NCBI RefSeq assembly: GCF_026967985.1
Contig: NZ_JAPVBJ010000006.1
Location: forward strand, 62,001-126,000
Origin: Modestobacter sp. VKM Ac-2984
GTDB taxonomy: Bacteria > Actinomycetota > Actinomycetes > Mycobacteriales > Geodermatophilaceae
Length of the DNA stretch: 64,000 nucleotides
Direction: 5' to 3'
This document shows, in pieces, positions 29,972-62,421 of this stretch. The stretch's first letter is position 1. Every line of letters starts with the position of its first letter. A program made the translations under genes and the position numbers. Below the pieces are notes generated by a model that was not told where the DNA came from, did not search any database, and worked only from the letters and a program-made list of their open reading frames with translations.

Positions 29972-30730
29972 TCAGCTCTGGCGGGCGGCGTTGGCCTGGA
30001 CGGCGGTGCTCACGTACTGCGCCAGACCGGGCGCGACCCGCTCGTAGTGGGCGGTGAACCGCTCGTCCTCGACGTACATCCGGCCGAGCCCGGCATGCAC
30101 CTCCGGCGAGCAGTCGTAGAAGTGCCGGCTGATCTGCTGCCGGTGCTCCTCGGCCAGGTCCTGCGCTGCGGTCGAGTCGGCCGGCACGCCGGCGGCCAGC
30201 GCCGCGGCGAACCGGCGCTCGACGTCGTCGGACTCGGCCTTGACCCGCTGCCAGTCCTCCTTGCTCATCGCCGCGGTGCGCCGTTGCGATTGCGCCCACG
30301 CCTCGGTGTCGCCCCACCTCTCCTCGGCCTCGGCGGCGTACTCCTCCGGGAGCCAGTCGCCGAACACCTCGAACCGTTCCTCCGGGGTCAGGGAGATCCC
30401 CATCTGCCGTGCCTCCATCTCCTTCTCCACGGCCGCGACCATCGCCTGGGTGCGCTCGAGCCGATCCCGCAGCAGCCGGTGCTGCCGGCGCAGGTGCACC
30501 GCGGGGTCGGCCTCGGGGTCGTCCAGCAGGGTCGCGACCTCGTCGAGGGGGAACCCGAGCTCGCGGTACAGCAGCACCTGCTGCAGCCGGTCCAGGTCGC
30601 GCGCGTCGTAGCTGCGGTGGCCCGCCGACGTCCGCTCGCTCGGCCGGACCAGCCCGATCCGGTCGTAGTGGTGCAGCGTGCGCACCGTGACCCCGGCCAG
30701 CCGGGCCAGCTCACCCACCGTCCAGCTCAT
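29972..30730 (-). CDS. MerR-family regulator with TipAS effector domain
   Basis: 252 residues: an N-terminal MerR helix-turn-helix (MSWTVGELARLAGVTVRTLHHYDRIGLVRPSER), a coiled-coil linker, and a C-terminal TipAS-like domain (FGDWLPEEYAAEAEERWGDTEAW through the conserved HFYDCSPEVHAGLGRMYVEDERF). TipA-like proteins bind thiopeptides or other small ligands covalently or tightly and activate efflux or resistance genes. ATG 30730 has GAGGAGGGG upstream. A 17-base palindrome 38-54 bases before the start is its probable autoregulatory site. Confidence 0.9.
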   Translation of the reverse strand: MSWTVGELARLAGVTVRTLHHYDRIGLVRPSERTSAGHRSYDARDLDRLQQVLLYRELGFPLDEVATLLDDPEADPAVHLRRQHRLLRDRLERTQAMVAAVEKEMEARQMGISLTPEERFEVFGDWLPEEYAAEAEERWGDTEAWAQSQRRTAAMSKEDWQRVKAESDDVERRFAAALAAGVPADSTAAQDLAEEHRQQISRHFYDCSPEVHAGLGRMYVEDERFTAHYERVAPGLAQYVSTAVQANAARQS

Positions 30731-31776: not shown

Positions 31777-32364
31777 TCAGTCGTCCTGGCCGGTGCCCTG
31801 GTGGCCGTGCTGGATCGAGGTCATCGCCTCGTTGGCCGAGGCCACCAGCGACTCCGGCGTCGAGGCCCGGCCGGAGAGCGCCACGCCGACGCTGAGCCGC
31901 ACGTGGTGCTCGACACCGGGTCGTGGCCGCAGCGGCGTGTCGAACGCGGCCGCGATGCGCAGCGCGATGCCCTGCGCGTCGTCGGCGGTCTGGAGGCCGG
32001 GGCACAGCAGCACGAAGGTCTGGGCGCTGATCCGGGCGACGACGTCCCCCTGCCGCACGGCGCCGACCAGCCGGCCGGCCGCCTCGGCGCGGGCGGCGTC
32101 GGCGACGGCGGAGCCGTGGGCGTCCTCCAGGACGGCCATGCCGTCGAGGTCGCAGGAGAGGACGGCGAGCCGGCCGGTGGTCGGGCCGGCGGCGGCCAGG
32201 GCGAGCTCCAGCCGGTCGATCAGCAGGCTGCGCACCGGCAGGCCGGTGAGCGGGTCGGCCACGGTCCGCTGCCGCAGCCGCTGCGCGAACTGACGCTGGG
32301 CGGCGACGACCGCCGCCGTCTGCACCAGCACGTCCTGCGACTCCTCGAGCCTGATCGCCTGCAT
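31777..32364 (-). CDS. degenerate GGDEF-domain protein with intact I-site
   Basis: 195 residues. A short helical lead (LVQTAAVVAAQRQFAQRLRQRT) is followed by a GGDEF fold: ADPLTGLPVRSLLIDRLELA and VLSCDLDGMAVLEDAHGSAVAD. The active-site GGDEF loop reads SAQTF, so cyclase activity should be lost. The inhibitory-site RxxD (RQGD) remains eight residues before it, in VRQGDVVARISAQTF. I infer a c-di-GMP-binding effector or regulator rather than an enzyme. The start ATG 32364 begins MQAIRLEESQDV. Confidence 0.8.
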   Translation of the reverse strand: MQAIRLEESQDVLVQTAAVVAAQRQFAQRLRQRTVADPLTGLPVRSLLIDRLELALAAAGPTTGRLAVLSCDLDGMAVLEDAHGSAVADAARAEAAGRLVGAVRQGDVVARISAQTFVLLCPGLQTADDAQGIALRIAAAFDTPLRPRPGVEHHVRLSVGVALSGRASTPESLVASANEAMTSIQHGHQGTGQDD

Positions 32365-32507: not shown

Positions 32508-32726
32508 ATGGGTGAGGTCGTGCTGCTCGTGGTCATCGGGATGCTGCTGCTCGCGCTCGTCGGACTGGGGGTCCGAGCCGGGCGTGCCTCCCGCGGTGGG
32601 GACGCGGCCGGGCGGAACGGCAACGACCCGGCGCGCCCCGACGACCCCGCTGCCCCGGACGCCCGCGGCGCCGTCAACCGCAGCAGCTGGATGCTCGGCG
32701 GCGGTGGGGGAGGAGGCGGCGGCTGA
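32508..32726 (+). CDS. small single-helix membrane protein with Gly-rich tail
   Basis: 72 residues: one hydrophobic helix (residues 3-21), an Arg/Gly/Asp/Pro-rich stretch, the segment AVNRSSWMLGG and a terminal run of nine Gly. TACGCT at 32496-32501 lies seven bases before the ATG, as in leaderless actinobacterial genes. The family is unknown to me. The stop falls inside a terminator hairpin shared with the convergent gene. Confidence 0.55.
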   Translation: MGEVVLLVVIGMLLLALVGLGVRAGRASRGGDAAGRNGNDPARPDDPAAPDARGAVNRSSWMLGGGGGGGGG

Positions 32727-32748
32727 CCGGCGGGGCTCAGCCGGTCAG
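32723..32748. terminator. hairpin overlapping two convergent stop codons
   Basis: CTGACCGGC (32723-32731) and GCCGGTCAG (32740-32748) form a perfect nine-base stem with an eight-base loop. The plus-strand stop (32724-32726) is in one arm and the minus-strand stop (32737-32739) is in the loop. Confidence 0.65.
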
Positions 32749-33336
32749 GGTGCGGACGGTCTCCACCACCGCGATGACGGCGAAGAGCAGGAACAGGCCG
32801 GCGGCGACCCGGTGCAGCAACGCCACCGGGAGACGGTCGGCGAGCTTGCGGCCCAGGAACGCGGCCAGCCCGGAGATCACCAGCAGCGCCGCCCACGCCC
32901 CGACGAAGACCGACAGCGGCTCCTCGTAGCGGGCCGCCAGCCCGGCGGTGGCCAGCTGGGAGAGGTCCCCCCACTCGGCGGCGAACAGCACGCCGAAGGA
33001 GATCGCTGCCGCCCGCACGAACGAGGTCTGCTCCCGTGCCTGGACGGTGGCCTCGTCCTCGTCGCCGCCCTTGCGGGACTCCCGCCACAGCAGCACCGCG
33101 CCGGTCAGGAACAGCACGGCGACCACGGCGCTGACCACCGCCTCGGGCAGCAGCGAGAGCAGGCTGCCGGCGGTCACCGCGATCGCGACCTGCAGGCCGA
33201 AGGCCAGGCCGACGCCGACGAAGACCGGCAGCGGCGGGAAGCGGGTGGCCAGCACCAGCGTGGCGAACAGCGTCTTGTCGGGGAGCTCGACGGGGAGGAT
33301 CAGCACGAAGGCAGCCAGGACGACGGACAGGACCAC
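32737..33336 (-). CDS. UPF0016/GDT1-family transporter, probable Mn2+ exporter
   Basis: About 199 residues with six transmembrane helices in two halves. The family motif ExGD[KR][ST] appears as ELPDKT in the first half and EWGDLS in the second. A charged loop GGDEDEATVQARE separates them. Bacterial members (MneA/MnX-like) export manganese. The GTG start 33336 is preceded by AGAGAGAA. The Mn2+ riboswitch directly upstream strongly supports manganese as substrate. Confidence 0.88.
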   Translation of the reverse strand: MVLSVVLAAFVLILPVELPDKTLFATLVLATRFPPLPVFVGVGLAFGLQVAIAVTAGSLLSLLPEAVVSAVVAVLFLTGAVLLWRESRKGGDEDEATVQAREQTSFVRAAAISFGVLFAAEWGDLSQLATAGLAARYEEPLSVFVGAWAALLVISGLAAFLGRKLADRLPVALLHRVAAGLFLLFAVIAVVETVRTLTG

Positions 33337-33418
33337 GAGTTCTCTCTCTGCTCGCGCCGACCGGCGGGGCTGAGGGGCGCCTCCGTCCGGCAGCGCACCG
33401 ATGGGTGGACTGCGGGCG

Positions 33419-33512
33419 GAAGGTCTCGCCCACCCGCGGCGACGCGGGCCCGCTGACCGGGCGCGCGAACGCGCCAGCATGTCGACCAGCGGTCGGGGGG
33501 CTACTCCCCTTC
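33419..33512 (-). ncRNA. Mn2+ (yybP-ykoY) riboswitch aptamer
   Basis: On the minus strand GAAGGGGAGTAGC starts the aptamer and GGGCGAGACCTTC ends it, so GAAGG and CCTTC form the closing helix. This is the layout of the crystallised Lactococcus element (AAAGGGGAGUAGC ... GCAAGACCUUU). Between them are stem-loops around CGACCGCTGGTCG and GGCGCGTTCGCGCGCC. An 82-base segment (33337-33418), including GCCGGACGGAGGCGCC, then leads to the UPF0016 start and may be the expression platform. The UAG of GGGGAGUAG is also the larC stop codon. Confidence 0.88.
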
Positions 33513-34703
33513 TCGGTCCAGGAGCGTAGCCGACGTCCCCGGGTGGGCCCGGTGCGCGGCTGCGGTCGCCGCTCGCAGCACCTCCTTGGCCGGCAGCCCG
33601 AGCGAGCGGGCCAGGGCGGCCACGTCCTCGAACTCCACGCTCACGTTCACCACCCGGCCGTCGAGGCGCGCGACCTTCACGCCCACCGAGCCGCCGAGGA
33701 CCGCGACGCGGTGCTCGGTCCGCTGCAGCGCGACCTTCTGCACCGGCTGCGCCCGCAGCCCGATGGTCGAGGTCGAGGCCACGACGACGTCCTGCACCGC
33801 CGCGCGCGCCGCGGGCGGGCACAGCACCGACAACGTGTGCGCCGGGCGGCCCTTCTTCATCAGGATCGGGGTGAGCCAGGCGTCCGAGGCGCCGGCGGCC
33901 AGCAGGTCGGCGAGCACCCCGGGCCACAGCCGGGGGTCCAGGTCGTCGACGTTGGTCTCCAGCAGCAGGCCGGTGGCCGGCTCGTCCACCGGCTCGCCGA
34001 GCACCAGGCGCACCAGGTTGGGCAGCTGCTCCGGGTCCCGGCCGCCGGCGCCCGAGCCGACCCGGGCCACCCGCATCGGCGGCAGCGTCGTCCACTCCTG
34101 GACGTGCGCCGCCACCAGCGCCGCGCCCGTCGGGGTGCACGTCTCGGCCGGCACCGGCCCGGCGACCACCGGCACCCCGCGCAGCAGCTCCAGGACGGCG
34201 GGACCGGGCACCGGCACCACGCCGTGCGCGCCGCGGGCCGAGCCGCTGCCGAGTGCGACCGGGGAGGCGCTGAGCCGGTCGAGCCCGAGGTGGGCGAACC
34301 CGGCCACCACACCGACGACGTCGGCCAGCGCGTCCAGCGCGCCGACCTCGTGGAAGTGCACCTCGTCGGCGGGCACCCGGTGCACCCGGCCCTCGGCGAC
34401 CGCCAGCCGCTCGAAGACGGCTCGGGCACCGTCGCGGACCGCGGGGGGCAGGGCGGCGTCGGCCAGGATCGACCGGACGTCGGTCCAGGTGCGGTGGACG
34501 TCGCTGGGCGGGGCGTGCACGTGCACCCGGGTGGCGCCCAGCCCGTGCCGGGTCGTCGGCTCGGCGGTCAGCGTGACCGGCTCGACCGGCAGCGCGGCGA
34601 CGGCCCCCGCCAGCACCTCCAGCGGCACCCCGACGTCGACGAGCGCGCCGAGCAGCATGTCCCCACTCGCCCCCGCGGAGAGGTCCAGCCACCCGATGGT
34701 CAC
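33501..34703 (-). CDS. larC: nickel pincer cofactor biosynthesis protein LarC
   Basis: 400 residues, full length. It inserts nickel into the pyridinium-dithiocarboxylate mononucleotide to finish the nickel pincer cofactor used by lactate racemase-like enzymes. Typical LarC features are the start IGWLDLSAGASGDMLLGAL, DEVHFHEVGALDALADVVG, TPTGAALV and LLETNVDDLDPRLWPGVL. LarC is sometimes split by a programmed frameshift, but here it is one frame. It starts at GTG 34703 and its stop lies within the Mn2+ aptamer. larB (as a fusion) is immediately upstream. larA and larE are not in the window. Confidence 0.92.
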   Translation of the reverse strand: MTIGWLDLSAGASGDMLLGALVDVGVPLEVLAGAVAALPVEPVTLTAEPTTRHGLGATRVHVHAPPSDVHRTWTDVRSILADAALPPAVRDGARAVFERLAVAEGRVHRVPADEVHFHEVGALDALADVVGVVAGFAHLGLDRLSASPVALGSGSARGAHGVVPVPGPAVLELLRGVPVVAGPVPAETCTPTGAALVAAHVQEWTTLPPMRVARVGSGAGGRDPEQLPNLVRLVLGEPVDEPATGLLLETNVDDLDPRLWPGVLADLLAAGASDAWLTPILMKKGRPAHTLSVLCPPAARAAVQDVVVASTSTIGLRAQPVQKVALQRTEHRVAVLGGSVGVKVARLDGRVVNVSVEFEDVAALARSLGLPAKEVLRAATAAAHRAHPGTSATLLDREGE

Positions 34704-34705
34704 GC

Positions 34706-34738
34706 GCCGATCATGACGTGACGGAGTCGATCATCGGC
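34706..34738. repeat. imperfect inverted repeat between larB and larC
   Basis: GCCGATCATGAC (34706-34717) and GTCGATCATCGGC (34726-34738) form an imperfect hairpin. A third related unit, GCCGATGATCAAC (34776-34788), covers the larB stop. This may be an attenuator or a REP-like intergenic element. I cannot count genomic copies from here. Confidence 0.5.
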
Positions 34739-34783
34739 AGGTGGTCGCCCGACACGCCGCGCAGGGCAGCCGGACGCCGATGA

Positions 34784-37609
34784 TCAACTCGGGGGCAGTG
34801 CGGCAGTGCGGCGGGCGATGCGGGCGGCGAAGACGCCGGCGGACCAGCCGTTGTCGATGTTGCTGACCACGACGCCGGGCGCCGCGGAGTTGAGCATGGT
34901 GAGCAGCGCGCTGAACCCGCCGAAGGAGCTGGCGCCCTGGCCGGCCGACGTCGGGACGGCGACCACCGGCACCTCGGTCAGACGGCTGACCACGCTGGCC
35001 AGCGCCGCGTCCAGGCCCGCCACGACGACGAGGCAGTCGACGTCGGTTAGCAGCGACCGGTCGGTCAGCAGCGGGTGGATCCGGCTGCCGCCGACGTCGT
35101 CGACCCGCACCACCTCGGTGCCGGTGACCCGGGCGACGAAGGCCGCCTCGGCGGCGATGGGGGTGTCGCCGCTGCTGGCGCACAGCACGCCCACCCGGCC
35201 GACCGGCTCGGGCACCGGGCCGATCGCGGCGGACATCGCCGCCGCGTCCATCGTCGTGTAGGCGTCGTGCTCGGTGGCCAGCGCGACCAGGGTGTCGGCG
35301 CTGGCCCGCACCACCACCGCGGGGTGGCCGGGGTGTTCCCGGCGGGCCTCGCGCACCAGGGCGAGCACCTGCTCGGTGCTGCGCCCGGTGCCCCAGATGA
35401 CGTCCGGACCGGTGGCCAGGACCGGCGCGGCGGCGACCGGCGGCGGCACGGCGGCCGCGGCGGGGGCGGGGCTCGCCACCGGCTCGGCGACCCGCTGCGC
35501 TGCCGGGCGGGTCGAGGGGCCGCCGAACAGCTCGTCCAGCGGGCTGCGCAGCCGGACCGGCGGCTCGACGTCGGCCGGGGCGTCGCCACTGGCCGGCTCG
35601 ACCAGCAGCGGGGCGAAGCCGCCGGTGGCGTCCTCGGGCTGCTCGTCGCGGTCCTCGGGGAGCGGGGAGGTCACCTCGCCGACGGCGGACGACGTCGGGA
35701 CGGCCACCGGCGCCGTCTCCTCCGCGACCGGGCCGGTCTCGGCCACGTGGTCGTCGACGGCGACCGGGGCGGCGTCGGCGGCCCGCGTCTGGGTGACGCC
35801 GGACAGCCGGACGACCCGGTCCCGCCCGGCCCGCTTGGCGTCGTAGAGGACCCCGTCGGCGGCGGCGAACAGGGTGCGCCGGTCGTCGCCACGGGCCGCC
35901 TGGGCGATGCCGACGCTGATCCGCACCGGCACCTCGACGCCCAGGGCGGACCAGTCGTGCGTGGCGATCGAACGGCGGATGCGCTCCATCGCCCGCTCGG
36001 CCTGCTCGGAGGTGGTGTCCGGCAGCAGGATGACGAACTCGTCACCGGCCCAGCGGCACACCTCGTCGGTGTCCCGGCAACCGTCGACCAGCAGCTGACC
36101 GACCGCCCGGAGCACCGCGTCGCCGGTCGGGTGCCCGGCGGCGTCGTTGATCGCCTTGAACCGGTCGATGTCGACCACGGCCAGCGCCGGCAGCGCCCCC
36201 GCCGACAGCAGCCCGTCGAGTCGGGCCTCCGCGTAGCGGCGGTTGGGCAGGTGGGTGAGCGGGTCCTCGTAGGCCTGGCGGCGCAGCTGGCCGGCGGCCC
36301 GCTCGGTCTCCAGCAGGCTCTTGCGCCGGCCGAACAGCTCGACCCAGCGGGTGCGCCGCTCGTCGACCCGGTCCAGCTCGTCGGCGAGGTAGGCCTGCAG
36401 GTACGGCAGCGCCCGGGCCGCGTCGTCCAGCTCGGCGTGCAGCGTGCAGAGCTCGCGCAGCGCGGCCCGGCGCAACCGCGGGAGCCCGTGCTCGGTGGCG
36501 GTGGCCAGCGCGGTGGCCAGGTGGTCGTCGGCGGCCCGCGGGTCACCCGAGCGGCGCAGCGCGCGGCCCAGGCCCAGCTCCGCGGAGGCCAGGAGCGCGC
36601 GGTCATCGGCGCGGTCGGCGGCGGAGACAACGCTGGTCAGCAGCGACCGGGCGGCGGCGTGCTCACCGAGGCCGACCAGCGCCCAGCCGTGCACGACCTG
36701 GGCGTCCAGCAGCCCGGGGACGCCGGGGTGCAGCTGCCCCAGTGCCCGGACGGCGAGGTCGCGGGCCTCGGCGAAGTGCGGGGCCGCGGCGTCGGCGCCG
36801 CCGTCGTCGAGCAGCCCCTCGCCGACCTCGGCGCAGAGCGCGGCCAACCGGGTCGCGGCCTCGGCGGCGAGCGTGTCGACGGAGTCGGCCGCGGAGTCGG
36901 TGCCGGCCGCGCTGATCGCCTCGGCGGTCAGGTCGGCGGCCCGGCGCTGGTAGTCCAGGGCCAGCGGCATGAGCTCCAGGTCGGCCAGCACGGCGGCCAG
37001 CGAGCTCAGCGTGTGCACCAGCAGCGGGCTCGGCGGCAGGGCCGGGTCCAGCAGGCTGGCCGCCTCGACCGCCTCGTCCATCGCCGCGTCGACCCGGCGG
37101 GACAGCAGCTCGATCCGGGCGTGCCGGACCAGCCCGGCGGCCCGCTGCAGGTCGTCGTCCTGGGCGTCGAAGGCCGCGCGGGCCGAGCGGACCAGGGAGA
37201 TGGCCAGCGCCGCCTGCGTGGCCGACTCCGAGCGGCTGTCGCGGTCCACGGCCTCGTCCGGGGCGTGCAGGTCCAGCGGGCCCTCCTGCTCGGGGCCGCC
37301 CTCGACCAGGGGGTCGCCCAGCAGGGAGTAGCCGGCCCGCCGCAGGCGCCGGACCAGCAGCTCGGCGCGGAGGGTGTCGGCCCAGGCGCGGGCGAGCGAG
37401 GTGAGCGGTGCCCCCGAGTGCTCGTCGACCGGGGCGGCCGGCAGCTCGCCGTCGATCTCGCGCAGCAGCGTCTCGGCCGTCTCCAGCTGCCAGTTCGTGA
37501 GGGCTGAGCTCACTTGCTGGTGCAGCAGACCGGGTGGCACCAGGGCACTGTGCCCCGGAGCCGACGGCGTGTCACGCACCGGCGCGTCGGCCGGTCCCTC
37601 CTGCCCCAC
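34784..37609 (-). CDS. larB: TPR-diguanylate cyclase fused to LarB
   Basis: 941 residues from GTG 37609, which has GGGAGAGG just upstream. Residues about 30-420 are Ala/Leu-rich helical repeats of TPR type. Residues about 430-600 are a GGDEF domain with DPLTHLPNRR, VVDIDRFKAIND and RWAGDEF (near residue 523), and an intact I-site RDTD. Residues about 600-735 are a Pro/Ala/Val-rich linker. The last 200 residues are LarB/CpmA: VIWGTGRSTEQV, VGVLCASSGDTPIAAEAA, VVVAGLDAALASVV and VPTSAGQGASSFGG. LarB carboxylates nicotinate adenine dinucleotide in nickel-pincer cofactor synthesis. The fusion is in one uninterrupted frame, and the normal LarB N-terminal helix is replaced by the linker. larC follows after 80 bases. 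Confidence 0.85.
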   Translation of the reverse strand: MGQEGPADAPVRDTPSAPGHSALVPPGLLHQQVSSALTNWQLETAETLLREIDGELPAAPVDEHSGAPLTSLARAWADTLRAELLVRRLRRAGYSLLGDPLVEGGPEQEGPLDLHAPDEAVDRDSRSESATQAALAISLVRSARAAFDAQDDDLQRAAGLVRHARIELLSRRVDAAMDEAVEAASLLDPALPPSPLLVHTLSSLAAVLADLELMPLALDYQRRAADLTAEAISAAGTDSAADSVDTLAAEAATRLAALCAEVGEGLLDDGGADAAAPHFAEARDLAVRALGQLHPGVPGLLDAQVVHGWALVGLGEHAAARSLLTSVVSAADRADDRALLASAELGLGRALRRSGDPRAADDHLATALATATEHGLPRLRRAALRELCTLHAELDDAARALPYLQAYLADELDRVDERRTRWVELFGRRKSLLETERAAGQLRRQAYEDPLTHLPNRRYAEARLDGLLSAGALPALAVVDIDRFKAINDAAGHPTGDAVLRAVGQLLVDGCRDTDEVCRWAGDEFVILLPDTTSEQAERAMERIRRSIATHDWSALGVEVPVRISVGIAQAARGDDRRTLFAAADGVLYDAKRAGRDRVVRLSGVTQTRAADAAPVAVDDHVAETGPVAEETAPVAVPTSSAVGEVTSPLPEDRDEQPEDATGGFAPLLVEPASGDAPADVEPPVRLRSPLDELFGGPSTRPAAQRVAEPVASPAPAAAAVPPPVAAAPVLATGPDVIWGTGRSTEQVLALVREARREHPGHPAVVVRASADTLVALATEHDAYTTMDAAAMSAAIGPVPEPVGRVGVLCASSGDTPIAAEAAFVARVTGTEVVRVDDVGGSRIHPLLTDRSLLTDVDCLVVVAGLDAALASVVSRLTEVPVVAVPTSAGQGASSFGGFSALLTMLNSAAPGVVVSNIDNGWSAGVFAARIARRTAALPPS

Positions 37610-37635
37610 GGACCTCTCCCGGACCCGCCACGGCC

Positions 37636-39414
37636 TCACGAGGCGACCTCCGCGCCGTCGTCGAACGCCCAGCCCGGCCGCCGCGGGGTCGTGCCGAGCA
37701 CCTCCGCCACCAGGTCGTCGACCGAGGCGTCGGGTGGCAGCACACCGGACCGTGCGGTGGACGCGCCCCCCTGCTGCGCTCCACCCGATGCCCGGACCCG
37801 GTTGCGGCCGCCGCGCTTGGCACCGAACAGGTTCAGGTCGGCCCGGTCGAACAGCTCCCGCCAGGACCTCGGCCCCGGAGAGCCGGCCGGCCCGGTCGTG
37901 GCCACGCCGATGCTGACGGTCACCGGTGCGGGTATCTGCAGGTCGCCCCACTCGGCGCAGGCGACGGCGCTGCGCAGCCGTTCCGTGGCGACCAGGGCCT
38001 GGGCCTCGGTGGTGTTCGGCAGCACGACCACGAACTCGTCGCCGGCCCAGCGGAAGGCCTCGTCGCCGGTGCGGCTGTGCTGGCGGAGCAGCTCGGCGAC
38101 CCGGCGCAGCACCGCGTCGCCGTGCAGGTGCGAGTTCTGGTCGTTGACGGACTTGAAGCCGTCGACGTCCACGACGGCCAGCGACATCGGCTCGCCGTCC
38201 AGCGGCAGCTCGGCCAGCCGCCGCTCGGCGCTGCGCCGGTTGCCCAGGCCGGTCAGGGTGTCCTCGAGGGCGTGCCGGCGCAGCACGGCGGTCTGCCGCT
38301 CCGCCTCGCGCAACCGGCTGCGGCGCACGAACATCTCCGCCCAGAGCTCGCGCCCGCGCCGGTGCGCCCGGGTGGTCTCGGCCCGGTAGGCCTCCAGCCA
38401 GTGCAGCGCCTCGGTCGTCGACCCCATCGCCGCGGTGGTCTGCCCCAGCTCCAGCAGGCACTGCCGGTACCGGCGGCGGTCGTTGACGGCGGCGAAGGCG
38501 CCGGACGCGTCCACCAGCAGGCCGACGGCCTCCTCGCCCGCACCGCGGTCGGTGCCGGGCTGGGCGGCGCACGACCGGCTCAGCAGCCTGGCCAGGACCA
38601 GGTCGGTGTACCCGACCAGCCACACCCCGCCGTCGCCGGCGGCCAGGTGCCGGCGCACCCGGCGCAGCGGCGGCAGCGCGTCGTCGAGCTGACCGGCCAG
38701 GGTCAGGGCCCAGGCCTGGACGACGTCCAGCAGGTCGGCGTCGGCGTCGCTCGGGTCCCACGGCAGCGCGCGGGCGCTGGTCGCACACTCCAGCGCGGCC
38801 TGGGCCAGCTCGTGGGACCGCTCGGACTGGCCGCGCCGGTGCACCGTCTGGGCGAGCTCGGCGTGCTGCTGGGCGCACAGCCGGAGCAGCTGCCACTGGT
38901 CGCCGAGGTCGGGGAGGGCGGCGGCGACCCGGGCGCCGCGGAGCGACTGGGCCACGGCGAGCTCCTCGAGGTCCAGCCGGGTCAGTGCGAGGGACAGCCA
39001 GTGGTGGGCCTGGTGCAGCGGACGGCTGGGCGGCTCGTCGGACAGCTGGTCGGCGAGCAGGCTGGCGTCCACGGCCAGGTGCATCGCCGCGTCGAACCGG
39101 TCGGCGGCCACCTCCAGGTGCGCCAGGTAGGCCAGCGTCAGGGCGTGCTCGGCGGACGGGAGGCACTCTGCGAGCGCGGCCCGGGCGGCCCCCACGGCGT
39201 CCGCGGCGCCGTCCAGGTCGGCGTCGAAGAGGGCGGCGCGCGCGGTGAAGGCGGCCGACCACGCGTCCCAGCAGGGGTCGCCGGTGGCGCTCAGGTCGTC
39301 CGCGGCCCGGGCGAACTCGTCGGTGAACACCCGGGCGTCCTCGGCGGCGCTGGCGGTCAGCAGCCGCCAGCGGGCGGTCTGCAGCCGCTCGTCGGCGGGG
39401 AGCCCTGGGTTCAC
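37636..39414 (-). CDS. TPR-GGDEF diguanylate cyclase
   Basis: About 592 residues from GTG 39414, with GGAGGG four bases upstream; GTG 39426 is an alternative. The N-terminal 380 residues are helical TPR-like repeats. The GGDEF domain has DTLTGLGNRR, VVDVDGFKSVND and RWAGDEFVVVLP, with the first Gly replaced by Ala as in the neighbouring fusion protein. The I-site RTGD is present, so it should make c-di-GMP with feedback control. About 60 residues follow the GGDEF domain. It ends 26 bases before the GGDEF-LarB gene, so the two are paralogues and probably one operon. Confidence 0.88.
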   Translation of the reverse strand: MNPGLPADERLQTARWRLLTASAAEDARVFTDEFARAADDLSATGDPCWDAWSAAFTARAALFDADLDGAADAVGAARAALAECLPSAEHALTLAYLAHLEVAADRFDAAMHLAVDASLLADQLSDEPPSRPLHQAHHWLSLALTRLDLEELAVAQSLRGARVAAALPDLGDQWQLLRLCAQQHAELAQTVHRRGQSERSHELAQAALECATSARALPWDPSDADADLLDVVQAWALTLAGQLDDALPPLRRVRRHLAAGDGGVWLVGYTDLVLARLLSRSCAAQPGTDRGAGEEAVGLLVDASGAFAAVNDRRRYRQCLLELGQTTAAMGSTTEALHWLEAYRAETTRAHRRGRELWAEMFVRRSRLREAERQTAVLRRHALEDTLTGLGNRRSAERRLAELPLDGEPMSLAVVDVDGFKSVNDQNSHLHGDAVLRRVAELLRQHSRTGDEAFRWAGDEFVVVLPNTTEAQALVATERLRSAVACAEWGDLQIPAPVTVSIGVATTGPAGSPGPRSWRELFDRADLNLFGAKRGGRNRVRASGGAQQGGASTARSGVLPPDASVDDLVAEVLGTTPRRPGWAFDDGAEVAS

Positions 39415-39539
39415 GCGTCCCTCCACTCAGCTGTCGGGGCACGCGAGGTGCGCGTGTCCGGCCGGTGACGAGGCAGCTCCCCCCGTACCGGGGACCCGAC
39501 GGGAGTCGGTGTCCGATACGGCCGCACTACCCTCGCCGG

Positions 39540-40493
39540 ATGCCGACTGCACCACGCAGCACAGCCCCGACGGAGTTCGCCTATCTGGGCCCCGAGGGTA
39601 CCTTCGCCGAGGCCGCGCTCGGCACGGTCACCGGGGCGCTGGGCACGGTCGGCACCCGACCGGAGGCGAGCATCGCGGCCGCGCTGACGGCCGTCCGGAC
39701 CGGGGAGTGCGCCGCCGCCCTGGTGCCGCTGGAGAACTCCGTCGAGGGCTCCGTGCCGGCCACGATGGACGGGCTGGTCGCCGGCGACCCGCTGGTGATC
39801 ACCCGCGAGGTCTTCCTCGAGGTGGCCTTCGTGCTCGCCGTCCGCCCGGGGAGCGCCGCCGCCGACGTGCGCACCGTGGCCAGCCACCCGCATGCGCTGG
39901 CCCAGTGCCGCAGCCGGCTCGCCGAGTCCCTGCCCGGGGCCGACGTCGTCCCGGCCGCCTCCACGGCCGATGCCGCCCGCCGGGTCGCCGAGGGGGAGTT
40001 CGACGCCGCGGTCTGCGCGGCGATCGCCGCCGACCGCTACGGCCTCGACACGCTCGTCCCCGACCTGGCCGACCACCCGGGCGCCGTGACCCGCTTCGTG
40101 CTGGTGGAACCGCCCGGTGAGCTGCCGGCCCCGACGGGGGCGGACAAGACCACGATCACGGCCGTGGTGCACGACCGCACCGGTGCGCTGCTGGACCTGC
40201 TGGCCGAGTTCGCGGTGCGGGGCATCAGCCTGGCCCGCATCGAGTCCCGGCCCACCCGCGAGCGGCTCGGCGTCTACTCGTTCTCCATCGACGTCGAGGG
40301 CCACGTGACCGACCGGCGGGTGGGCGACGCACTGGCCGCGCTGCACCGGATCTGCGCCGAGGTGCGCTTCCTCGGCTCCTACCCCCGGGCCGACGACCAG
40401 CCGGGCAAACCGGTGGAGGAGCGGGTGGGCGACGAGGCCTTCGCCGCAGCCGAGGGGTGGGTGGCCCGGGTGCGCGCCGGGACGGCGGTCTGA
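39540..40493 (+). CDS. pheA: prephenate dehydratase
   Basis: 317 residues. It converts prephenate to phenylpyruvate in phenylalanine synthesis. The catalytic domain shows YLGPEGTFAEAA, ENSVEGSV and VTRFVLV. The C-terminal ACT domain with GALLDLLAEFAVRGISLARIESRPTRE binds phenylalanine for feedback inhibition. TACCCT at 39528-39533 lies six bases before ATG 39540, so the transcript is probably leaderless. Confidence 0.95.
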   Translation: MPTAPRSTAPTEFAYLGPEGTFAEAALGTVTGALGTVGTRPEASIAAALTAVRTGECAAALVPLENSVEGSVPATMDGLVAGDPLVITREVFLEVAFVLAVRPGSAAADVRTVASHPHALAQCRSRLAESLPGADVVPAASTADAARRVAEGEFDAAVCAAIAADRYGLDTLVPDLADHPGAVTRFVLVEPPGELPAPTGADKTTITAVVHDRTGALLDLLAEFAVRGISLARIESRPTRERLGVYSFSIDVEGHVTDRRVGDALAALHRICAEVRFLGSYPRADDQPGKPVEERVGDEAFAAAEGWVARVRAGTAV

Positions 40494-61098: not shown

Positions 61099-62421
61099 AT
61101 GCACGTAGCACGGGCACGGTGGGGCGTCGTCCTCGCCGCAACGTCGGTCGTCGCCGTCTCGGGCTGCAGCGGAGGTGGGACCGACAGTGGTGCGGAGCCC
61201 GGCAACGGCACGGGCGAGATCACGGTCTGGGCCCACCAGGGCCAGCCGGCCGAGGTCGACGCGCTGCAGCAGACCATCGACGACTGCAACGCCTCCCAGG
61301 AGGACGTCCAGGCGACGCTGCAGCTGATCCCCGAGGCCGACTACATGCGGACCGTGACGACGACGGACCCGGACGAGTTGCCCGACGTCCTCGAGTACGA
61401 CGGGCCGATGATGGCCTCCCTGGCCTACGCCCAGAAGCTCGCACCCGTGGGCGACCTGGTCTCGGCCGAGACGCTGGAGAACCAGACGGACTCGGTCCTG
61501 GCCCAGAACACCTACCCGGCCGACGGCGAGGTCTACGGCATCTCGCAGTACGACTCCTCGCTCGGCATCTACGGGAACAAGGCGCTCCTGGACGCCGCGG
61601 GGGTGTCCTACCCGCAGGGACTCGAGGACGCCTGGACGGCGGAGGAGTTCGAGGCCGCGCTGCAGACCCTCGCGGCCGCGGACCCGGACCAGAAGGTGCT
61701 CGACATCAAGGAGAACTACGGCGCGGAGTGGCCCACCTTCGGGTTCCTGCCGATCGTCTACTCCGCAGGTGAGCAGGTCGTGGAGGACGGCGTCGCGCAG
61801 GGGAACCTGAACAGCGCGCCCGTCGTGGAGGCCGTCGAGCGGTTCGCCGGCTGGCGCGAGTACATCGACCCCAACACCGACGACAAGGCGTTCGTCGACG
61901 GGCGGGTCCCGCTGAGCTGGGTGGGTCACTGGGTCTACAACACCTACGACGAGGCGCTCGGGGAGGACCTGGTCGTCCTCCCGCTGCCCGACTTCGGTGC
62001 GGGCCCGAAGAGCGGTCAGGGCTCGTGGGCGTGGGGGGTCAACCCCGCGACCGAGAACGGCGCGGCGGCCGGGGCGCTCCTGGACTGCCTCGCCTCGGAC
62101 GAGGCCGTCTCCGGCATGACCGACGCCAACGCCGCACCCCCGGGAACCACCAGCGTGACCGCTGGGAGCGAGCTGTACCAGGAGGGCGGGCCGCTCGAGC
62201 TCTTCGCCCGCCAGCTGGAGCTGACCTGCGGTGACGGTGAGCCCACGCCGGACTGCGTCGCGGTGCCCCGGCCGGTCACCCCGGCGTACCCGGTGATCAG
62301 CCAGCAGTTCTCCGAGGCGTTCTTCGGCGCCTACGACGGTGGCGATGCCCAGGAGCTGCTGGACTCGGCGGCCGAGCTGATCGACCTGGACTACCAGGAC
62401 AACGACAACTACGGGTCCTGA
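61099..62421 (+). CDS. carbohydrate ABC transporter substrate-binding lipoprotein
   Basis: 440 residues, family 1 extracellular solute-binding protein. The N-terminus MHVARARWGVVLAATSVVAVSGC gives a lipobox (VSGC). Mature segments such as EITVWAHQGQPAEVDALQQTIDDCN, PDVLEYDGPMMASLAYAQKLAPV and YGISQYDSSLGIYGNKALLDAAGV are typical. ATG 61099 has GGAGGT six bases upstream. With two MalFG-type permeases downstream and amino-sugar genes divergent, an N-acetylglucosamine or chito-oligosaccharide ligand is plausible but unproven. Confidence 0.9.
   Translation: MHVARARWGVVLAATSVVAVSGCSGGGTDSGAEPGNGTGEITVWAHQGQPAEVDALQQTIDDCNASQEDVQATLQLIPEADYMRTVTTTDPDELPDVLEYDGPMMASLAYAQKLAPVGDLVSAETLENQTDSVLAQNTYPADGEVYGISQYDSSLGIYGNKALLDAAGVSYPQGLEDAWTAEEFEAALQTLAAADPDQKVLDIKENYGAEWPTFGFLPIVYSAGEQVVEDGVAQGNLNSAPVVEAVERFAGWREYIDPNTDDKAFVDGRVPLSWVGHWVYNTYDEALGEDLVVLPLPDFGAGPKSGQGSWAWGVNPATENGAAAGALLDCLASDEAVSGMTDANAAPPGTTSVTAGSELYQEGGPLELFARQLELTCGDGEPTPDCVAVPRPVTPAYPVISQQFSEAFFGAYDGGDAQELLDSAAELIDLDYQDNDNYGS

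Follow-up and report, generated by a model that had tools for sequence, protein, structure and literature searches.

LarB of the nickel-pincer nucleotide (NPN) pathway carries out the carboxylation and hydrolysis of nicotinic acid adenine dinucleotide (NaAD) to give pyridinium-3,5-biscarboxylic acid mononucleotide (P2CMN), as set out in PMC11796402. For GGDEF enzymes, which make cyclic di-GMP (c-di-GMP), an active loop reading AGDEF is compatible with cyclase activity, for example in Vibrio cholerae VCA0965 (PMC3974145). Here we analyse a gene that joins these two kinds of protein in Modestobacter sp. VKM Ac-2984 (Geodermatophilaceae), located in a 64,000-nucleotide stretch (positions 62,001 to 126,000 of contig NZ_JAPVBJ010000006.1), referred to as the window. 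A tetratricopeptide repeat (TPR)-like region, a GGDEF domain, a linker and a LarB-like domain are encoded there as one chain. Judged from sequence, with a probability of roughly 0.68, the protein is a diguanylate cyclase with a pseudoenzyme, the C-terminal LarB-like domain, kept as a non-catalytic module.

Compared with LarB (NF033503; PDB 7mj0, 7mj1 and 7mj2), the fused domain lacks Cys221 and Ser127, is placed behind a cyclase and scores below the family cut-off. Its identity with PurE, an aminoimidazole ribonucleotide (AIR) carboxylase (PF00731), is 17-27% over about 130 residues among the matches listed, it has a LarB-type N-terminal part, and it is closer to LarB than to PurE. With AGDEF-loop cyclases such as VCA0965 the protein shares the A-first form of the GGDEF signature and the RxxD inhibitory site, but it adds the TPR-like N-terminus and the C-terminal LarB-like domain. 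The GGDEF gene immediately upstream has a similar layout through GGDEF, including AGDEF, but no LarB-like domain.

Results

The fold of LarB is retained in the fused domain, which matched six solved LarB entries. The NCBIfam LarB model (NF033503) aligned over profile positions 12-208 of 209 with 165.3 bits, missing the equivalog cut-off of 175. Two relatives exceed the cut-off (G094, 178.7 bits; G091, 177.3 bits). An earlier note on this DNA had pointed to a missing N-terminal helix of LarB, which is of little weight, because the six matched solved entries themselves span only about residues 45-250. The closest titled records to the domain are from Modestobacter (up to 99% identity). The fused LarB-like domain also occurs, at 73% identity, in a record labelled UNVERIFIED_ORG Bacillus sp. 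AZ43, a title that looks wrong.

Alignment with the solved LpLarB chains placed MLNSAAPG of the fused domain against MLNSCASG; counting along the alignment makes the Cys of the latter residue 221. This position is Cys in 53/53 rows of unfused LarBs, comprising 31 normal LarBs of the family (the genome's own and the 30 best-scoring) and 22 from related groups (18 from an order sample and four from genera g7 and g8); two loci are common to both sets, giving 51 distinct loci. None of the 100 readable rows among 101 fused loci has Cys there (79 Ala, 10 Ser, six Thr, four Gly and one Pro), and Pro was read by eye at this place in G107. Likewise, Ser127 is present in 51/53 unfused rows and in 0/100 readable fused rows, being Gly in the protein of Modestobacter sp. 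VKM Ac-2984. Nearly all fused rows further carry Arg for Lys57, Arg for Gly156 and Ala for Gly181 (LpLarB numbering). A LarB study of 2021 by Rankin names a cysteinyl-pyridine intermediate in its title; Cys221 is pointed to as the residue forming it because the second LpLarB cysteine in the aligned stretch falls outside the columns kept by the normal LarBs of the family. A fused LarB retaining the Cys, as an evolutionary intermediate, was looked for among the 100 readable rows and none was found; the divergent rows G005, G019 and G020 show more decay than the others rather than less. Elsewhere in the genome, on contig 16 and adjoining larE, is a separate, normal LarB that scores 237 bits and has LTACAPG at the Cys place. 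Contig 15 holds a second larE, at a distance of about 13 kb from one of the genome's two matches to the LarA N-terminal family; the other match is on contig 4.

The cyclase half looks intact, as had been supposed. Its GGDEF domain scored 133.5 bits against a curated cut-off of 23.8, and both the predicted active loop and inhibitory site are present. Across readable fused loci the loop is AGDEF in 87/92 and AGDEY in 5/92, and the inhibitory site in 87 tallied loci is RDTD (79), RDSD (5) or RGND (3); all five AGDEY rows have RDTD. The TPR repeats reported earlier are kept here as a TPR-like N-terminal region, its Pfam score being under the gathering score. Directly before the GGDEF domain, the usual place of the signalling helix in cyclases, the alignment has a near-invariant stretch that is probably such a helix, and on account of this placing the TPR-like region is taken as the input.

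We then searched 112 genomes of the soil-dwelling Geodermatophilaceae, and the fusion is present in 101 of them. The 101 fused loci come from 100 genomes, one of which gives two fragments, and G107, read by eye, makes 101 genomes. The GGDEF and LarB parts are in one frame in 92/94 loci with both parts on the contig (92/101 of all fused loci); of the nine outside this set, contig ends truncate seven, and L051 and L076 shift frame in the linker. A chance frame or an assembly artefact is ruled out by the single frame in 92/94 loci. Nine genomes of genera g6-g8 (74-98% complete) gave a single LarB match apiece, always a normal one, together with weak TPR-GGDEF matches (6e-24 or worse, mostly to GGDEF). 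In G098 and G081, which are counted neither way, the gene reaches the contig end within the linker; no LarB match was found anywhere in the G081 genome. Contigs frequently end within or close to the G+C-rich linker, which may conceal the fusion in draft genomes.

Outside the family, an order sample of 249 genomes gave no match above 244.7 bits, against 303.6-392.7 bits for the fused matches in that sample, except G005 (244.9) and G019 (231.1). No GGDEF domain was found in the LarB frame in the 18 genomes fetched of 47 matching ones outside the family, and in a phylum sample of 396 genomes the best match besides the own fused gene reached 155.7 bits; both samples cover part of their groups, and with a profile derived from Geodermatophilaceae an independent fusion elsewhere could be missed.

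Selection was estimated as ω, the ratio of non-synonymous to synonymous rates, by the pairwise Nei-Gojobori method, comparing Modestobacter sp. VKM Ac-2984 with 11 relatives, 10 of them congeneric. Over the 11 pairs, GGDEF gave 0-0.18, the LarB-like domain 0.05-0.23, the TPR region 0.21-0.47 and the linker 0.45-0.90. In eleven pairs among genomes without detected NPN genes, from three further genera, ω of the LarB-like domain was 0.05-0.37. Both sets are simple estimates from very G+C-rich DNA, and the second is without a linker or neutral control. By these estimates the LarB-like domain is under purifying selection, including in genomes without a detected nickel-pincer pathway.

Co-occurrence was scored at E 1e-15 for larB, larC and larE and at 1e-10 for larA. 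Normal larB, larC and larE are found together in 63/101 fusion genomes, 31 of which also have larA; the other 32 of the 63 gave no LarA-family match at 1e-10. In 28/101 fusion genomes, all of them at least 95% complete, none of the four genes was detected at these thresholds. Ten of the 101 have larC alone, with neither larE nor normal larB, and four of these ten are incomplete (67-80%). In five others of the ten (G002, G011, G013, G015 and G018), where larE and normal larB were not detected, larC is diverged (312-362 bits, against at least 396 for other full-length larC), as if decaying once the pathway had been lost. A LarA match with an incomplete pathway occurs in G096, G097 and G099, all incomplete genomes. 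Normal larB and larE occur in the same 73 genomes, some of the larE matches being partial (G101 and G037).

Gene order bears on how the fusion arose. The distance between the last larB codon and the start of the LarC alignment is -1 to 16 nt in 20/22 unfused loci; of the other two, one has a gap of 97 nt and one has no larC in the stretch. Wherever larC lies in the fetched stretch of a fused locus, it is downstream and on the same strand (61/61), at up to 200 nt in 40 loci, 201-1000 nt in 13 and further away in eight; it is not in the fetched stretch in 40/101 loci. These positions in unfused and fused loci suggest that the LarB part descends from the leading gene of a larB-larC operon, of which the adjoining larC would be a relic. 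In a tree using 31/101 fused rows, the fused LarB parts form one clade (support 100/100, stem 0.84), so the simplest account is that a TPR-GGDEF gene and a LarB gene were joined once.

The linker, correctly described before as Pro/Ala-rich, varies from 68 to 174 residues over 92 fused loci. It is coding, because its G+C content at codon position 3 (0.98) matches that of the adjoining segments (0.96-0.97 elsewhere; 0.96-0.98 over four segments of the gene). The motif GFxxLL occurs in 84/92 readable linkers. Shuffling of each linker gave an expected number of 0.09, a figure that is no independent test, as the motif was chosen by eye in the same linkers after stricter patterns and the related linker sequences are not independent. 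Among the eight linkers without it, seven have near forms such as AFAPLL or GFAPLV and one was taken only in part; other patterns were less frequent (LDxLFG in 18/92, a stricter GF motif in 45/92). GFxxLL is probably a short docking motif within a fast-evolving linker.

Gene organisation

The minus-strand frame from 37609 to 34784 has 941 residues and no stops, in agreement with the uninterrupted 941-codon frame noted earlier, for which the strand had been left unstated; the plus-strand reading of this interval is interrupted by stops. GGAGAGG lies just 5' of the GTG start at 37609, and an alternative GTG start is found 10 codons downstream. The features are collected in Table 1.

Table 1 Features of the fused gene and its neighbours (window positions)
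Feature	Position	Strand	Remark
Fused gene: TPR-like region, probable signalling helix, GGDEF, linker, LarB-like domain	34784..37609	-	941 aa, GTG start
TPR-like N-terminal region, residues 1-435	36305..37609	-	Pfam TPR_12 24.3 bits, under cut-off 30.1
Near-invariant stretch before GGDEF, residues 410-445 (near-invariance given to 458)	36275..36382	-	alignment, 27 rows
GGDEF domain, residues 446-598	35816..36274	-	Pfam PF00990, E 7e-39
Inhibitory site RDTD (RxxD), residues 512-515	36065..36076	-	sequence reading
Active loop AGDEF, residues 521-525	36035..36049	-	sequence reading
Pro/Ala-rich linker, residues 601-735	35405..35809	-	ω 0.45-0.90
Linker motif GFAPLL, residues 664-669	35603..35620	-	GFxxLL in 84/92 linkers
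LarB-like domain, residues 736-933	34811..35404	-	NCBIfam LarB residues 735-933; Pfam AIRC 806-933
Ala909 at position of LpLarB Cys221	34883..34885	-	alignment to solved LpLarB chains
larC	33501..34703	-	400 aa; LarC1 and LarC2 both over cut-off
Upstream GGDEF paralogue, similar N-terminal region	37636..39426	-	without LarB part
GDT1-family cation transporter, downstream neighbour, start uncertain	32737..33450	-	Pfam GDT1 E 8e-40

As the earlier note had it, larC follows directly; it is on the same strand, starts 80 nt past the stop of the fused gene and is the sole larC found in a search of the genome. A relative of the upstream GGDEF paralogue accompanies the fused gene in 91/101 loci, the other ten being cut by contig ends. 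Promoter and terminator patterns were searched in 32600-39600 and none was found, which says little for such DNA. Further downstream on the minus strand lie a small GGDEF-family protein (31777-32364, Pfam E 1e-21), whose loop was read by eye as ISAQTF, and a MerR regulator with a TipAS antibiotic-recognition domain (29975-30727, Pfam E 2e-45). The former, the third GGDEF gene near the fused gene, is probably inactive.

Discussion

Taken together, the likeliest role of the fused LarB-like domain is in signalling and not in cofactor synthesis, and on the best reading of the sequences its link to the nickel-pincer cofactor is historical, not functional. We propose that one old fusion joined a TPR-GGDEF gene to a LarB gene; the LarB part has since lost residues that unfused LarBs retain, while keeping the fold. 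The TPR-like region would sense a partner and act on the cyclase by way of the conserved stretch that precedes GGDEF. At the other end, the LarB-like domain on its flexible linker could act as a tether or scaffold that gathers or positions the cyclase, possibly under the control of a bound nucleotide, with GFxxLL as a probable docking site; it would make no P2CMN. LarB itself is an octamer, and PurE octamers are named in the titles of matched structure entries.

Several observations weigh against a non-catalytic module. Ser stands one place before position 127 in 28/98 fused rows, including Modestobacter sp. VKM Ac-2984, and Thr in 10, so the loss in the Ser127 column may partly be a matter of alignment. 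Asp128, Glu134, the PTS of residues 199-201 and Asp231 are kept in nearly all fused rows and Asp151 in 97/98, therefore substrate binding or other chemistry is possible. The argument also takes Cys221 to be the catalytic Cys that forms the LarB intermediate. Stretches of the domain are lost in G005, G019, G020 and G107, and constraint is therefore not uniform; the frame changes in the linkers of L051 (G092) and L076 (G047), and a stop lies just before GGDEF in L092 (G032). Finally, the joining point of the fused clade among other LarBs is poorly supported (45/83), and vertical descent from the operon larB is suggested by gene order, not by the tree.

Among the alternatives, the likeliest, though still less likely than not, is that the LarB-like domain is a sensor that adjusts the cyclase when its former active site binds NaAD, nicotinamide adenine dinucleotide (NAD), adenosine monophosphate (AMP) or some other nucleotide. 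Solved LarB entries with AMP and with NAD, according to their titles, and the several core positions conserved despite the lost Cys and Ser are consistent with this. However, 68-174 residues of fast-evolving linker separate the domain from the GGDEF domain before it and would transmit rigid allostery poorly, and the four genomes with lost stretches speak against it as well; behind a linker this long and variable, a tethered scaffold or docking module is likelier than a rigidly coupled sensor. Improbable is a dead partner that regulates NPN synthesis by forming mixed oligomers with real LarB or by binding LarC. The normal larB, larC and larE of 63/101 fusion genomes and the downstream larC of 61/101 loci would suit such a role, but it is not a general function, since the domain is still constrained in the 28/101 genomes where none of these genes was detected.

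The earlier note had proposed a bifunctional protein in which c-di-GMP, or the guanosine triphosphate (GTP) pool, controls NPN synthesis by an active LarB domain. The single chain, the kept LarB fold, larC at 80 nt (and within 200 nt in 40/101 fused loci) and the complete normal set in 63/101 genomes are all compatible with it. Yet the Cys and Ser127 are gone from 100/100 readable fused rows, a separate normal LarB adjoins larE, and the fusion is kept in 28/101 genomes with no detected larA, larB, larC or larE; on the lost residues and the presence without the pathway we reject this proposal as very improbable. Least probable of all is a vestigial, functionless passenger, for which the lost active-site residues and the stretches missing from G107 and three genomes of genus g2 could be cited, but which is at odds with ω of 0.05-0.23 beside a linker at 0.45-0.90, with 0.05-0.37 in the pairs from three further genera, and with the one frame kept in 92/94 loci.

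Open-licence papers gave no description of a GGDEF-LarB fusion or of a LarB pseudoenzyme, nothing on GGDEF with an AIR carboxylase and, on Geodermatophilaceae diguanylate cyclases, no description of the fused protein. The non-catalytic module described here thus appears to be a first example both of a pseudoenzyme derived from LarB and of c-di-GMP signalling that involves a LarB-like domain. Annotation as LarB may wrongly credit NPN synthesis to organisms without the rest of the pathway detected, because in G091 and G094 the fused gene scores over the LarB cut-off although both genomes are without the other genes. The family offers many natural variants and a plausible before state, the unfused larB-larC operons in related groups. 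More speculatively, and with a low probability, the dead LarB might be a nucleotide-binding scaffold that senses NaAD or NAD and couples the pyridine-nucleotide state to local c-di-GMP synthesis across the family; if so, an enzyme of cofactor synthesis would have been turned into a second-messenger control domain.
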